Position numbers and translations under genes: made by a program
Source of the DNA: Streptomyces bobili
Lineage (GTDB): Bacteria > Actinomycetota > Actinomycetes > Streptomycetales > Streptomycetaceae
Direction: 5' to 3'
DNA: 64,000 bases
Assembly (NCBI RefSeq): GCF_002154575.1
Contig: NZ_MUBA01000067.1
Coordinates: forward strand, 1 to 64,000
Notes under the pieces: model-generated
Database searches by the model: none
What the model saw: the letters and a program-made list of their open reading frames with translations, nothing else
What the model was told of the DNA's origin: nothing
Part shown: piece after piece, positions 51,028-59,744 of the stretch
How the letters are laid out: the number at the start of each line of letters is the position of its first letter
Numbering within the stretch: the first letter of the stretch is position 1

Positions 51028-51101
51028 GGGGCTATAGCTCAGTTGGTTAGAGCGCATCCCTGATAAGGATGAGGCCACAGGTTCAAATCCTGTTAGCCCC
51101 A
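51028..51101 (+). tRNA. ileT: tRNA-Ile (GAT)
   Basis: A 74-nt tRNA with acceptor GGGGCTA / TAGCCCC, D-arm AGCTCAGTTGGTTAGAGCG, anticodon loop CTGATAA with GAT at 51062-51064, and T-arm ACAGGTTCAAATCCTGT. The discriminator is A at 51101 and CCA is encoded at 51102-51104. It lies after gyrA and DUF3566, as in mycobacteria. Confidence 0.98.
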
Positions 51102-51108
51102 CCAGTAC

Positions 51109-52274: not shown

Positions 52275-52403
52275 GTGAAGAAGCTTCTCCTGGTCGCACT
52301 GGCCGCCATCGGCGGGCTCCTCGTGTACCGCCAGATCCAGGCGGATCGCGCCGAGCAGGATCTGTGGACGGAGGCGACCGACTCCGTGCCCACGGGTTCT
52401 TGA
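52275..52403 (+). CDS. DLW-39 family protein
   Basis: A 42-residue protein: a hydrophobic N-terminal segment (KKLLLVALAAIGGLLVYRQIQ), then an amphipathic stretch containing the family's Asp-Leu-Trp (AEQDLWTEATD). The start is GTG 52275 with GACGAGG upstream. The same tiny gene sits between tRNA-Ile and tRNA-Ala in many actinobacteria, showing selection, but no function is known. Confidence 0.85.
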   Translation: MKKLLLVALAAIGGLLVYRQIQADRAEQDLWTEATDSVPTGS

Positions 52404-56450: not shown

Positions 56451-56523
56451 GGGGCCTTAGCTCAGTTGGTAGAGCGCTGTCTTTGCATGGCAGATGTCAG
56501 GGGTTCGACTCCCCTAGGCTCCA
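56451..56523 (+). tRNA. alaT: tRNA-Ala (TGC)
   Basis: A 73-nt tRNA: acceptor GGGGCCT / AGGCTCC (one G-U pair), D-arm TAGCTCAGTTGGTAGAGCG, anticodon stem CTGTC/GGCAG with loop TTTGCAT (anticodon TGC at 56484-56486), T-arm AGGGGTTCGACTCCCCT, discriminator A. CCA is not encoded fully (ACAT follows). Confidence 0.98.
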
Positions 56524-56530
56524 CATCGAA

Positions 56531-56683: not shown

Positions 56684-57385
56684 TCAGCCGCGGTCCTCGC
56701 GGTTCGAGGTCTCCTCGTCCTCCTTCGCCTGCACCTCGGGGTCGAGCGCCGAGGTCTCGCCGGTGCCGTCCACGGAGGTCAGACCGCCCGCGGCGGGTAC
56801 CTCGGTGGCGGCGGGCGGCTCGACCAGCCAGTCCGGGTTGGCCTGCTTGTCCCACCACTTCCAGGCGGCGAAGGCGCTTCCGCCCACCAGACCGACCATC
56901 GCCAGCACCTTGGCGATCTTGCCGGCCTTGGCTCGGCGGCGGTGCTTGCGCACCAGCTTCTGGATGTCCTTCGGGGTCACCTGGCCGCGCAGGGCGGCCA
57001 TCGCGGCGACGCTGCGGGCGGCGGCCTCCCCCTTCACGGGCCCGGCCGCGGCCATCGCCTGTTCGAGCTTCGGCCGGGAGTAGTCGGCGGCCTGCCGGGC
57101 GGCCAGGCGCGTGCGGCAGGCAGCCTCATGGGCGGCCTGGTCGACCTTCGGCGGGACATGCGCCATCGCCTGCTCAAGGCGGGGCGCCACTCGGGCGTCG
57201 TACTGGACGCGGGCCTGTTCGGCGGCTTGGGACACCTTGGGCGCTAGCCGTACGCGGGCCTCGTGCGCGTAGAGCGCGGCCCTCTCCTTGGCCGTGTCGG
57301 CGTAGGGCGCCACCACTTCCGCGGCGTGCAGCACGCTGTCCTTCGCCGAACCGGTCGCGGCGCGCACGCTGTCGATGCGGGTCAC
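56684..57385 (-). CDS. DUF5324 membrane protein at the CwsA position
   Basis: A 233-residue protein. Residues 1-150 are Ala/Glu/Arg-rich helices with repeats like AEVVAPYADTAKERAALYAHEARVRLAPKVSQAAEQARVQYDAR, likely an extended helical rod. A basic patch (KHRRRAKAGK) and one membrane helix (about 163-180: VLAMVGLVGGSAFAAWKWW) follow, then a short Pro/Glu-rich exported tail. Mycobacterial CwsA, encoded at the same place between tRNA-Ala and ppiA, has the same order of parts and binds CrgA and Wag31. No sequence identity can be shown by eye; the analogy is from layout. Confidence 0.8.
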   Translation of the reverse strand: MTRIDSVRAATGSAKDSVLHAAEVVAPYADTAKERAALYAHEARVRLAPKVSQAAEQARVQYDARVAPRLEQAMAHVPPKVDQAAHEAACRTRLAARQAADYSRPKLEQAMAAAGPVKGEAAARSVAAMAALRGQVTPKDIQKLVRKHRRRAKAGKIAKVLAMVGLVGGSAFAAWKWWDKQANPDWLVEPPAATEVPAAGGLTSVDGTGETSALDPEVQAKEDEETSNREDRG

Positions 57386-57720
57386 GGGTTCCTCCTCCTC
57401 GGTGGCGTACGGTATTTCGACTTTCCACCCTTTTACGGATCATGCCTGCCGACGGCCTCCGGGGCATGCGCGGACGGGCATACGGGTGCCGGACGTCCCG
57501 AGTTGTCTTGATCGGATACAAGAGCAGGTGAATACGGGGCAACGGGAACTTGTCGTCGACAATGCCACGGATCGGCCCGCCTTGCCCCCGTCCCGGACGG
57601 GTCCGGCGCTTTTCCGTAGCCGAAGTGGGCGGTTCCTGTGCACGCGGTGGCAGCCGGGCGACGGGCCGCCGCAGGCGTGCGAGGATCGATGGGTTACAGG
57701 AAGACAACGGAAGGCAGATC
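57386..57720. other. DUF5324-ppiA divergent spacer
   Basis: A 335-bp spacer with both divergent promoters. A short palindrome TTGTCG-T-CGACAA lies at 57549-57561. No small gene is convincing. Confidence 0.4.
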
Positions 57721-58248
57721 GTGGCCGAGCAGCTTTACGCCACCCTGAAGACCAGCCAGGGTGACATCCAGGTCAGGCTCTTCCCGGACCACGCGCCCAG
57801 GACGGTCAAGAACTTCGTCGACCTCGCCACCGGGGGACGGGAGTGGACCCACCCCGCCACCGGTGAGACGTCCTCGGCCGAGCTCTACGACGGCACGGTC
57901 TTCCACCGGGTGATGAGCGGATTCATGATTCAGGGCGGTGACCCGCTGGCGAACGGCACGGGCGGACCCGGCTACCAGTTCGAGGACGAGTTCCACCCGG
58001 ACCTGCGCTTCGACCGGCCGTATCTGCTGGCGATGGCCAACGCGGGCCCAGGCACCAACGGCTCGCAGTTCTTCATCACCGTCTCCCCGACGGCCTGGCT
58101 GAACCGCAAGCACAGCATCTTCGGCGAGGTCACCGACCCGGCGAGCCAGAAGGTGGTGGACGCGATCGCGGGCGTCGAGACCAACCCGCGCACCCACCGT
58201 CCGCTGAAGGACATCGTCATCGAGTCGGTCGTCGTCGAAACGCGCTAG
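57721..58248 (+). CDS. ppiA: Cyclophilin-type peptidyl-prolyl isomerase
   Basis: A 175-residue cytoplasmic cyclophilin that speeds proline isomerisation during folding. The active-site motifs are FHRVMSGFMIQGGDP (catalytic Arg in FHRV), NGSQFFITV and the substrate Trp in PTAWLNRKHSIFGEV. The GTG start at 57721 follows GGAAGG. It has no signal peptide. Position after tRNA-Ala matches Rv0009 ppiA of mycobacteria. Confidence 0.96.
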   Translation: MAEQLYATLKTSQGDIQVRLFPDHAPRTVKNFVDLATGGREWTHPATGETSSAELYDGTVFHRVMSGFMIQGGDPLANGTGGPGYQFEDEFHPDLRFDRPYLLAMANAGPGTNGSQFFITVSPTAWLNRKHSIFGEVTDPASQKVVDAIAGVETNPRTHRPLKDIVIESVVVETR

Positions 58249-58340: not shown

Positions 58341-59234
58341 ATGGATCAGGCCTCAGGAAGCCGGCCGGATGACGCCCAGAGCGGTGTGCCGGTCTGCTAC
58401 CGGCACGCGGGCCGCGAGACCGGCGTGCGCTGCACGCGCTGCGAGCGCCCGATCTGCCCCGAGTGCATGGTGAGTGCCTCCGTCGGCTTCCAGTGTCCGG
58501 AATGTGTGCGTAACGGGTCCGGCACCGGGCACGCCCCCGACGCGAACCGCCCCCGCACCCTCGCCGGCGGGACCGTCGAGGCGGACCCGCATCTGGTCAC
58601 CAAGGTCCTCATGGGCCTCTGTGTCGCGGTGTTCGTGGTGCAGATGGCCGTCGGGGACCGGTTCACCGACCGGTTCAGCCTGCTGGGGCTGGCGTACGTG
58701 CCAGAGCTGGGCTCCGTGCAGGGCGTCGCCGACGGTCAGCCGTACCGGCTGCTGACCTCGATGTTCCTGCACCTGGACTACTTCCACATCCTCTCCAACA
58801 TGCTCAGCCTCTGGTTCATCGGCCGGTATGTGGAGGAAGCGCTCGGCCGCACCCGCTATCTCGCCCTCTACCTGCTGTCCGGTCTGGCGGGCGGCGCGCT
58901 GGCCTACCTGCTCAACGAACCCAACGCGCCCTCGCTGGGTGCTTCGGGCGCCATCCTCGGGGTCTTCGGCGCCCTCGCCGTCCTGATGCGTCAGCAGCGC
59001 TACGACATGCGGCCCATCGTCGCCATGCTGGTGATCACGCTGATCATCACCTTCGGGTGGAGCAACATCTCCTGGGAGGCCCATGTCGGCGGCTTCGTCG
59101 GCGGTGCCGTCATCGGTCTCGCCATGGTCCATGCCCCCCGCAGCCGACGGGCCCTGGTCCAGTACGGCACCTGTGCGCTGGTGCTGGCCGCGGTCGTGGT
59201 CGTCACCCTCCTGAGGACCGCCCAGCTCACCTGA
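58341..59234 (+). CDS. Rhomboid protease with N-terminal zinc finger
   Basis: A 297-residue intramembrane serine protease. The catalytic dyad is Ser202 (GASGAILG) and His248 (SWEAHVGGF), with the oxyanion pair His149 and Asn153 (HILSNM). Six to seven helices span residues ~85-295. The N-terminus has a B-box-like cysteine-rich finger (CYRHAGRE, CTRCERPICPECM, CPECV, residues 19-55) that likely binds zinc. The ATG at 58341 has GGGGGAG upstream. The substrate is unknown. Confidence 0.92.
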   Translation: MDQASGSRPDDAQSGVPVCYRHAGRETGVRCTRCERPICPECMVSASVGFQCPECVRNGSGTGHAPDANRPRTLAGGTVEADPHLVTKVLMGLCVAVFVVQMAVGDRFTDRFSLLGLAYVPELGSVQGVADGQPYRLLTSMFLHLDYFHILSNMLSLWFIGRYVEEALGRTRYLALYLLSGLAGGALAYLLNEPNAPSLGASGAILGVFGALAVLMRQQRYDMRPIVAMLVITLIITFGWSNISWEAHVGGFVGGAVIGLAMVHAPRSRRALVQYGTCALVLAAVVVVTLLRTAQLT

Positions 59235-59489: not shown

Positions 59490-59744
59490 CTACTTCCACT
59501 GGGTCGAGACGCCGAAGCCGGCGGCGATGAAGCCGAAACCGACCACGATGTTCCAGTTGCCCAGAGCGTCGATGGGCAGCGACCCGTCGGTCACGTAGAA
59601 CACGACGATCCAGGCGAGTCCGATGAGGAACATCGCCAGCATGACCGGCGCGACCCAGGCACGGCTGTTGAGCTTGATGGCGGTCGCCTGCTTCGCGGGC
59701 GGCGGCGTGTAATCGGCCTTCTTGCGGATACGTGACTTCGGCAC
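59490..59744 (-). CDS. crgA: Cell-division regulator CrgA
   Basis: An 84-residue two-helix membrane protein (helices about 32-50 and 62-80) beginning [15 protein letters not shown]. CrgA inhibits FtsZ-ring formation in aerial hyphae in Streptomyces and links FtsZ to septal wall proteins in mycobacteria. The start is GTG 59744 with GGAGAG upstream; a longer in-frame frame extends to 59813 but the family protein begins here. The ending is STQWK, as in the family. Confidence 0.97.

Follow-up and report, generated by a model that had tools for sequence, protein, structure and literature searches.

DUF5324 of Streptomyces, a probable homologous counterpart of mycobacterial CwsA encoded divergently from ppiA

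The DUF5324 locus and its identity with SCO3857

The window analysed here is a stretch of 64,000 nucleotides from Streptomyces bobili, in which a gene with a GTG start, encoding 233 amino acids, lies at 56684..57385 on the minus strand. Its product is covered end to end by the Pfam family PF17258, DUF5324 (391.7 bits, E 1.3e-117, cut-off 27), and qualifies for curated membership of that family. The slot that the gene occupies is bordered on the left by tRNA-Ala(TGC) (56451-56524, plus strand), at a distance of 160 bases, and on the right by the divergent cyclophilin gene ppiA (57721-58248, plus strand; PF00160, E 5.7e-44), beyond which are found genes for a rhomboid protease (58341-59234, plus strand; PF01694, E 2e-36) and CrgA (59490-59744, minus strand; NF002595, E 6.6e-49, also PF06781). 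A gene divergent from ppiA, adjoining tRNA-Ala and close to crgA has the position typical of cwsA, and in the window this gene is DUF5324. The first-pass annotation was right on this point, and ppiA is divergent from DUF5324 in all 39 Streptomyces loci compared (38 genomes, the window and L005 being one and the same). It gave the mycobacterial order as tRNA-Ile, tRNA-Ala, cwsA; in the window, tRNA-Ile (51028-51104) is 5.3 kb from tRNA-Ala, so that these genes are not neighbours.

DUF5324 was found in 104/104 same-genus genomes of an order-wide draw, the genus being inferred as Streptomyces from named records with high-identity DUF5324, and weaker matches occur in six of the 15 genomes of that draw from outside the genus. 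A search of a plasmid collection gave zero matches. Among the five genomes of family f110 with a DUF5324 match, ppiA was not found in the 6-6.5 kb around it in four (L223-L226), so either the gene or ppiA has relocated there; in the fifth (L222), both are still together. Upstream of the gene, about 60 bases (GGCATGATCCGTAAAAGGGTGGAAAGTCGAA...) are strongly kept across the 39 Streptomyces loci. In the consensus of the 39 intergenic regions, this leader (57386..57447, minus strand) comprises the ribosome-binding site GGAGGAGG and about 50 further bases, and it is a possible developmental promoter. As a conserved WhiA site we considered GACAC/GTGTC; it is present upstream in just 15 of the 39 loci and missing from the window, so any whiA dependence of DUF5324 may be indirect.

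In S. coelicolor, SCO3854 is crgA (PMC4255298), SCO3855 is a rhomboid (PMC4467639), and a predicted OsdR site has been placed at -271 relative to SCO3857 and at -66 relative to the cyclophilin gene SCO3856c (PMC5069765). The exact 16-mer of that site occurs in one of the 39 Streptomyces loci and in none of 80 named loci; in the genome concerned (G635; L150, L230) it is found 256-271 bases ahead of the start of DUF5324 and about 65 from that of ppiA. From the gene order of SCO3854-SCO3856c and the position of the OsdR site, DUF5324 is therefore SCO3857. The first-pass annotation spoke of an undescribed partner of polar growth and septation, but the gene was studied in 2013 as a sporulation gene. 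Salerno et al. identified SCO3857 as a homologue of S. actuosus NshA (80.7% identity over 233 aa) and reported that it is up-regulated in sporulation in a whiA- and whiH-dependent manner, with a promoter signal of 1077 in spores versus 6 in vegetative hyphae, and that its deletion reduces the heat resistance of spores while colonies are normal (PMC3878966). A sporulation mutant of DUF5324 is thus already in the literature, hidden behind a misleading name, since 'nosiheptide resistance regulator' looks wrong for SCO3857. The main text of that paper has 0 occurrences of crgA. In the table of a SigT pull-down, SCO3857 ranks 19th, represented by one peptide (PMC5537264). The name DUF5324 found no mention in the literature searched, nor is a link between CwsA and a Streptomyces protein drawn in the accessible portions of PMC4255298, PMC3989709, PMC11571769, PMC10522489, and PMC4632501.

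Protein architecture and the ppiA-divergent slot

Residues 3-132 (56990..57379, minus strand, as are all parts of the gene) form Ala-rich helices with an 11-residue amphipathic repeat, as judged from the AF2 helices and from periodicity: over 41 DUF5324 sequences, identity at lag 11 is 0.22 versus a mean of 0.11, and hydrophobicity has a period of 3.67-3.7. By analogy, such a repeat resembles that of helices lying on membrane surfaces. An AAMAALRG motif lies at residues 127-134 (56984..57007), which is common to many slot proteins (AL[RK]GE, alignment A6), and a basic patch, VRKHRRRAKAGK (residues 145-156, 56918..56953), precedes a predicted single transmembrane (TM) helix at about residues 157-175 (56861..56917; hydropathy maximum, AF2 helix 138-182). 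The remaining residues, 176-233 (56687..56860), make up a predicted outside tail that starts with KWWDKQANPDWLVEPP, the counterpart of the DPW motif found after the TM helix in many slot proteins; it opens with NPDWLVEPPAATEVP and is mostly acidic thereafter. The topology is a prediction from the basic patch by the positive-inside rule.

The AF2 models of DUF5324 (helices 3-75, 79-132, 138-182) and CwsA (helices 11-21, 29-53, 58-96, 101-125) both consist of long helices and are of low confidence (pTM 0.28 and 0.25). At the level that such models allow, DUF5324 follows the CwsA-type plan of cytoplasmic helices, a basic patch, one C-terminal TM helix, and a short tail. Most of the shared plan that the first-pass annotation had described thus stands (helical part, basic patch, single TM helix); the Pro-rich tail does not, as the tail of DUF5324 is mostly acidic and only that of CwsA is truly Pro-rich. 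A fold search of the PDB with the DUF5324 model returned two meaningless matches (E 7.5 and 8.7), so the models speak neither for nor against a relation.

To describe the slot across the class, where crgA is present in 289 of 296 genomes, we picked 60 regions spanning families from among the crgA matches listed (289 positive genomes). ppiA was found in 53 and a rhomboid match in 52 of the 60, and in 44 of the 53 regions with ppiA an adjacent divergent ORF has a strong hydrophobic segment (3 of the 44 being only 44-60 aa). A second batch of 52 regions, covering the family and order of the mycobacteria as well as the order of Streptomyces (12 of them picked for their DUF5324 matches), has ppiA in 43 and added 26 more slot proteins by the same filter, that is, hydropathy above 1.2-1.25 followed by selection by eye, with starts also set by eye. 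Among 45 slot proteins, Pfam at E<=0.1 matches DUF5324 in 17, CwsA in five, and Apolipoprotein in 26.

The mycobacterial gene order given in the first-pass annotation included a rhomboid, but none is present in the three mycobacterial regions tested (L081-L083); one is present in five regions (L076-L080) of other genera of the same family. Mycobacterium itself (genus g3) was inferred from near full-length PF10814 (CwsA) matches in 17 genomes. In two regions of another genus, g4, a 70-aa protein consisting of a TM helix and a Pro-rich part is encoded divergently from the rhomboid gene (L074:4067-4279, minus strand; L075:2882-3094, plus strand), and ppiA was not found in the fetched region; the slot gene therefore keeps to the rhomboid-crgA side. 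Matches of PF10814 outside mycobacteria were seen at L059-L071 and at 20 loci L161-L180; the latter 20 were considered as slot genes and were set aside, as none has ppiA, rhomboid, crgA, or DUF5324 nearby (tblastn 1e-3). A weak slot-profile match (1.8e-4) was seen on the minus strand of L182 (2-796), from a probably Corynebacterium-like genome (g348), and this ORF is a candidate CwsA-like protein; C. glutamicum itself has been listed among bacteria without cwsA (PMC3989709).

The recurrent element of the slot proteins is the TM helix with its juxtamembrane motif, not the 11-residue repeat. The motif is DPW or a similar Trp motif in many families and PPxxxPPxV in Mycobacteriaceae, whereas the repeat, though found in the cytoplasmic part of most slot clusters, is missing from CwsA, its nearest relatives, and f8. 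Several very short slot proteins of Mycobacteriaceae (L078-L080, L185, L193, L196) are mostly TM helix and Pro-rich tail; L074, L075, L078-L080, and L185 have little beyond the TM helix and the juxtamembrane motif. The cytoplasmic part seems dispensable in these short proteins.

These features bear on a real rival to the septal or spore-wall role proposed below, namely that DUF5324 is a membrane protectant whose helices, akin to those of apolipoproteins and group 3 LEA proteins, coat and stabilise the spore membrane in heat or drying and have no role in septation. The periodicity of DUF5324 fits it, as do the heat-sensitive spores and normal colonies of the SCO3857 mutant (PMC3878966), and the best of the 26 Apolipoprotein matches reaches 1.1e-8, while LEA_4 matches one of the 45 slot proteins (0.004). 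Among the matches listed, however, Apolipoprotein scores range from 11.9 to 26.8 bits against a model cut-off of 90 bits. Moreover, the slot family also occurs in Mycobacteriaceae, which are not known to sporulate, and some of its members there (L078-L080, L074, L075) are reduced to TM helix and tail and have hardly any helical part, so that the repeat is not what all members share. On balance, we regard a purely protective function as unlikely, but as the alternative to be taken most seriously.

Probable transitive homology between DUF5324 and CwsA

Direct comparison of the two proteins is negative. PF10814 finds no match in the product of 56684-57385 at E<=1, the protein falls outside curated CwsA membership, and over 28 same-genus genomes the profile gives one sub-threshold match, elsewhere in its genome (G193). 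The profile-profile comparison proposed in the first-pass annotation turned out negative: hhalign gave 8.5% with a score of 24.9, and 11 of 40 block shuffles were equally good. On slightly wider alignments the value is 37%, over 25 TM columns. As it does not match the CwsA profile, DUF5324 should not be classed as a CwsA.

Intermediate families, on the other hand, connect the two. The hhalign scores along the chain are 82.6 for CwsA to f3other (non-mycobacterial members of the same family), 58.2 for f3other to f108 (62.5 in the reverse direction), 57.0 for f108 to f114/120/121, 114.1 for f114/120/121 to f76/81/99, and 100.6 for f76/81/99 to DUF5324, with 99.0 for DUF5324 to f109/110. Reversed-sequence controls reach at most 37.9 between different families and 49.2 overall (f86 versus its own reverse), and for each of the six linked pairs 0 of 40 block shuffles attain the observed score. 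The very short ORFs (L078-L080, L185, L193, L196) were excluded from the clusters.

As a guard against mere TM likeness, genome-wide best-match tests were run. With profile A5, built from 12 slot proteins of which none is from Streptomyces, all 18 Streptomyces genomes searched have DUF5324 as their best match (E between 7.7e-25 and 1.3e-11, against 0.0017 for the runner-up anywhere). With A4, built from 12 of the 13 f3other and four of the six f108 slot proteins, cwsA is the best match for 14 of the 17 mycobacteria (E between 1.1e-12 and 5.3e-8, the runner-up being at 4.4e-4) and is missed in G096, G429, and G449; as the mycobacterial genomes are related, counts over them are not independent. 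A1 comprises 32 of the 36 slot proteins outside f1 and f3 (none of f108; L084, L087, L094, and L119 left out) and, among the matches listed, ranks cwsA at the top for 10 of 14 mycobacteria (7.5e-6 to 4e-3) and DUF5324 for four of eight Streptomyces genomes. Again among the matches listed, DUF5324 of G000 comes behind another ORF and the small protein DLW-39, and in G107 DLW-39 is first.

The middle of the chain is weaker. Comparison of A4 with A5 gives 93%, but over 32 TM columns. When A4 is run on 20 genomes from the opposite half of the family, the slot protein comes out on top in two (G341, G376), and DUF5324 is unlisted at E<=1 in both Streptomyces genomes among the 20; A5 on the f3/f108 genomes has it as best match in four of 20 (G774, G501, G038, G721), the match in G501 running past a stop codon. 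This weakest link lies within the mycobacterial order and depends chiefly on the membrane helix.

The sequences searched in iterated HMM walks were 124 slot entries, 977 shadow frames, and 9,170 ORFs of other kinds, and every round took in all matches at E<=1e-3 (scaled to 10,000 sequences), whether or not they were slot proteins; DLW-39-type ORFs were included in the rounds and may help the walk. Seeded with DUF5324, the walk gathers 7 of the 20 CwsA entries (from 17 genomes) at round 3, 19 at round 4, and all 20 at round 5; seeded with CwsA, it gathers one DUF5324 entry at round 3 and 40 of 40 (from 39 genomes) at round 4. The other ORFs that the final CwsA-seeded model matches at E<=0.01, sorted by eye, are 12 unlabelled slot-type ORFs, five of the DLW-39 type with TM and Trp, and the L182 candidate. 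Walks from 14 decoy families (each a set of ORFs with a hydrophobic segment, and some of them probably reading frames antisense to conserved genes) gather zero slot proteins in 13 cases, and the remaining one takes a single over-long ORF.

By intermediate sequences, common ancestry with CwsA is thus supported, with a weaker link in the middle. The first-pass annotation had named three things together as refuting its proposal (absence of remote homology, of interaction with CrgA or DivIVA, and of a polar or septal location), and the first of them is not the case. Of that proposal, position and transitive homology hold up and the direct profile match (Pfam, hhalign) does not. From synteny and transitive profile homology, one weak link included, DUF5324 is very probably the homologous counterpart of CwsA, and both would be members of an old, widespread actinomycete family encoded divergently from ppiA and a few genes from crgA. 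Non-homologous replacement, in which two unrelated TM proteins came to occupy one slot and resemble each other through low-complexity helices and a TM helix, would account for the negative direct comparison and for a bridge that aligns mainly the TM helix and is rarely the best match. It is nevertheless improbable, as the slot is occupied in many families between the two, the chain scores exceed all reversed and shuffled controls, and both the best-match tests (A1, A4, A5) and the walks, with 13 of 14 decoy families gathering no slot protein, connect the two ends.

Proposed role and comparison with known systems

CwsA helps mycobacteria to build the cell wall at poles and septa. It is reported to bind CrgA and Wag31/DivIVA (PMC3989709, PMC4255298), two-hybrid being the sole basis of the Wag31 contact (PMC3989709), and to be located at the poles and the septum (PMC3989709). 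According to a review, S. coelicolor is without an obvious CwsA-like protein, which is said to be in keeping with CrgA and DivIVA being found apart there; this CrgA is reportedly not at tips or septa (PMC4255298).

For DUF5324, the most likely reading is that of a scaffold, anchored in the membrane, for assembling the sporulation septum or the spore wall. The helical part would lie on, or bundle at, the inner face of the membrane, where the cytoplasmic part would tune membrane binding, while the TM helix and juxtamembrane motif would dock on CrgA and on the machinery that synthesises the wall at septa; the protein could so help to place or hold this machinery at sporulation septa and at the forming spore wall. 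Published expression in hyphae undergoing sporulation and heat-sensitive mutant spores (PMC3878966) fit such a role. Against the scaffold and homology view are the lack of the repeat in CwsA, the normal colonies of the mutant, and the reported absence of S. coelicolor CrgA from tips and septa (PMC4255298). We consider a role in the septum or spore wall somewhat better than an even bet, and the same holds for CwsA homology and the scaffold role taken jointly. A putative direct contact with CrgA falls a little short of even, and one with DivIVA is rather doubtful.

A further alternative is that DUF5324 is a substrate of the neighbouring rhomboid protease, intramembrane cleavage freeing its tail or cytoplasmic part. 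The rhomboid matches in 52 of the 60 first-batch regions and the short slot-type ORF divergent from the rhomboid gene in the two g4 regions without ppiA found (L074, L075) agree with this, but the mycobacterial regions tested keep cwsA without a rhomboid, which makes it quite improbable. That the protein regulates thiopeptide resistance, as the old name NshA has it and as the 80.7% identity with S. actuosus NshA and the linkage of nshR to nshA there might suggest (PMC3878966), is hardly credible, given that Pfam and NCBIfam find no DNA-binding or other regulatory domain, that every same-genus genome searched (104/104) carries DUF5324, and that the 2013 authors themselves propose another function (PMC3878966).

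Returning to the scaffold reading, DUF5324 is a named candidate for the CwsA-like protein said to be absent from S. coelicolor (PMC4255298), and the linkage of CrgA to wall synthesis in Streptomyces becomes directly testable, the more so as an SCO3857 mutant exists (K302). The family spans the class, and CwsA looks like a shortened, diverged member of it.

Within the same neighbourhood, the window also encodes a DLW-39 small protein, a TM helix followed by DLW (52275..52403, plus strand; NF038356, E 4.1e-20 on 52278-52400), 5 kb from DUF5324; in Streptomyces it is matched by the A1 slot profile. NF038356 has no match in DUF5324, so that any relation concerns the TM module only. At E<=0.01 the slot model recovers two of 12 motif-recognised DLW-39 ORFs plus three look-alikes (about 10,000 ORFs), a hint that DLW-39 is possibly an old paralogue of the C-terminal module of the slot proteins. 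A wider reading would derive CwsA, DUF5324/SCO3857, and DLW-39 from one TM and juxtamembrane Trp/Pro module located next to ppiA, rhomboid, and crgA in the ancestor shared by the Actinomycetes. This module would dock CrgA-linked wall synthesis, and the cytoplasmic half would have been rebuilt repeatedly, mostly as 11-residue repeats, as a different helix in mycobacteria, and as next to nothing in some Mycobacteriaceae. We put it forward tentatively, with the odds against it, slightly more so because only two of the 12 motif-recognised DLW-39 ORFs reach E<=0.01. If it is true, Streptomyces has a CrgA partner at sporulation septa, which the literature calls missing.

Compared with the systems known so far, CwsA (PF10814; Rv0008c, MSMEG_0023) shares with DUF5324 the ppiA-divergent slot near crgA (and next to tRNA-Ala at the loci with tRNAs detected), the single C-terminal TM helix after a basic patch, the short outside tail, and the chain of intermediate families. 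It differs in its length (132-146 versus about 233 aa), in having no 11-residue repeat and no direct profile match, in its tail (PEPSPxPPSV versus NPDWLVEPP), and in that the CwsA loci tested are without the rhomboid present at the DUF5324 locus. DLW-39 (NF038356) resembles the slot proteins in having a [DE]xW motif after its TM helix and in its neighbourhood, and some members match slot profiles, but at about 40 aa it begins at the TM helix and has no cytoplasmic part. Apolipoprotein A1/A4/E and LEA-like helices share with the cytoplasmic part of DUF5324 an amphipathic periodicity of 11 residues, whereas the slot proteins are membrane-anchored and bacterial and score far below the family cut-off. 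The closest likeness is to SCO3857 of S. coelicolor, which is divergent from ppiA, has 233 aa as reported (232 aa in G635), and carries the OsdR site 271 bases upstream; no difference from the DUF5324 of the window is known, and both belong to PF17258.
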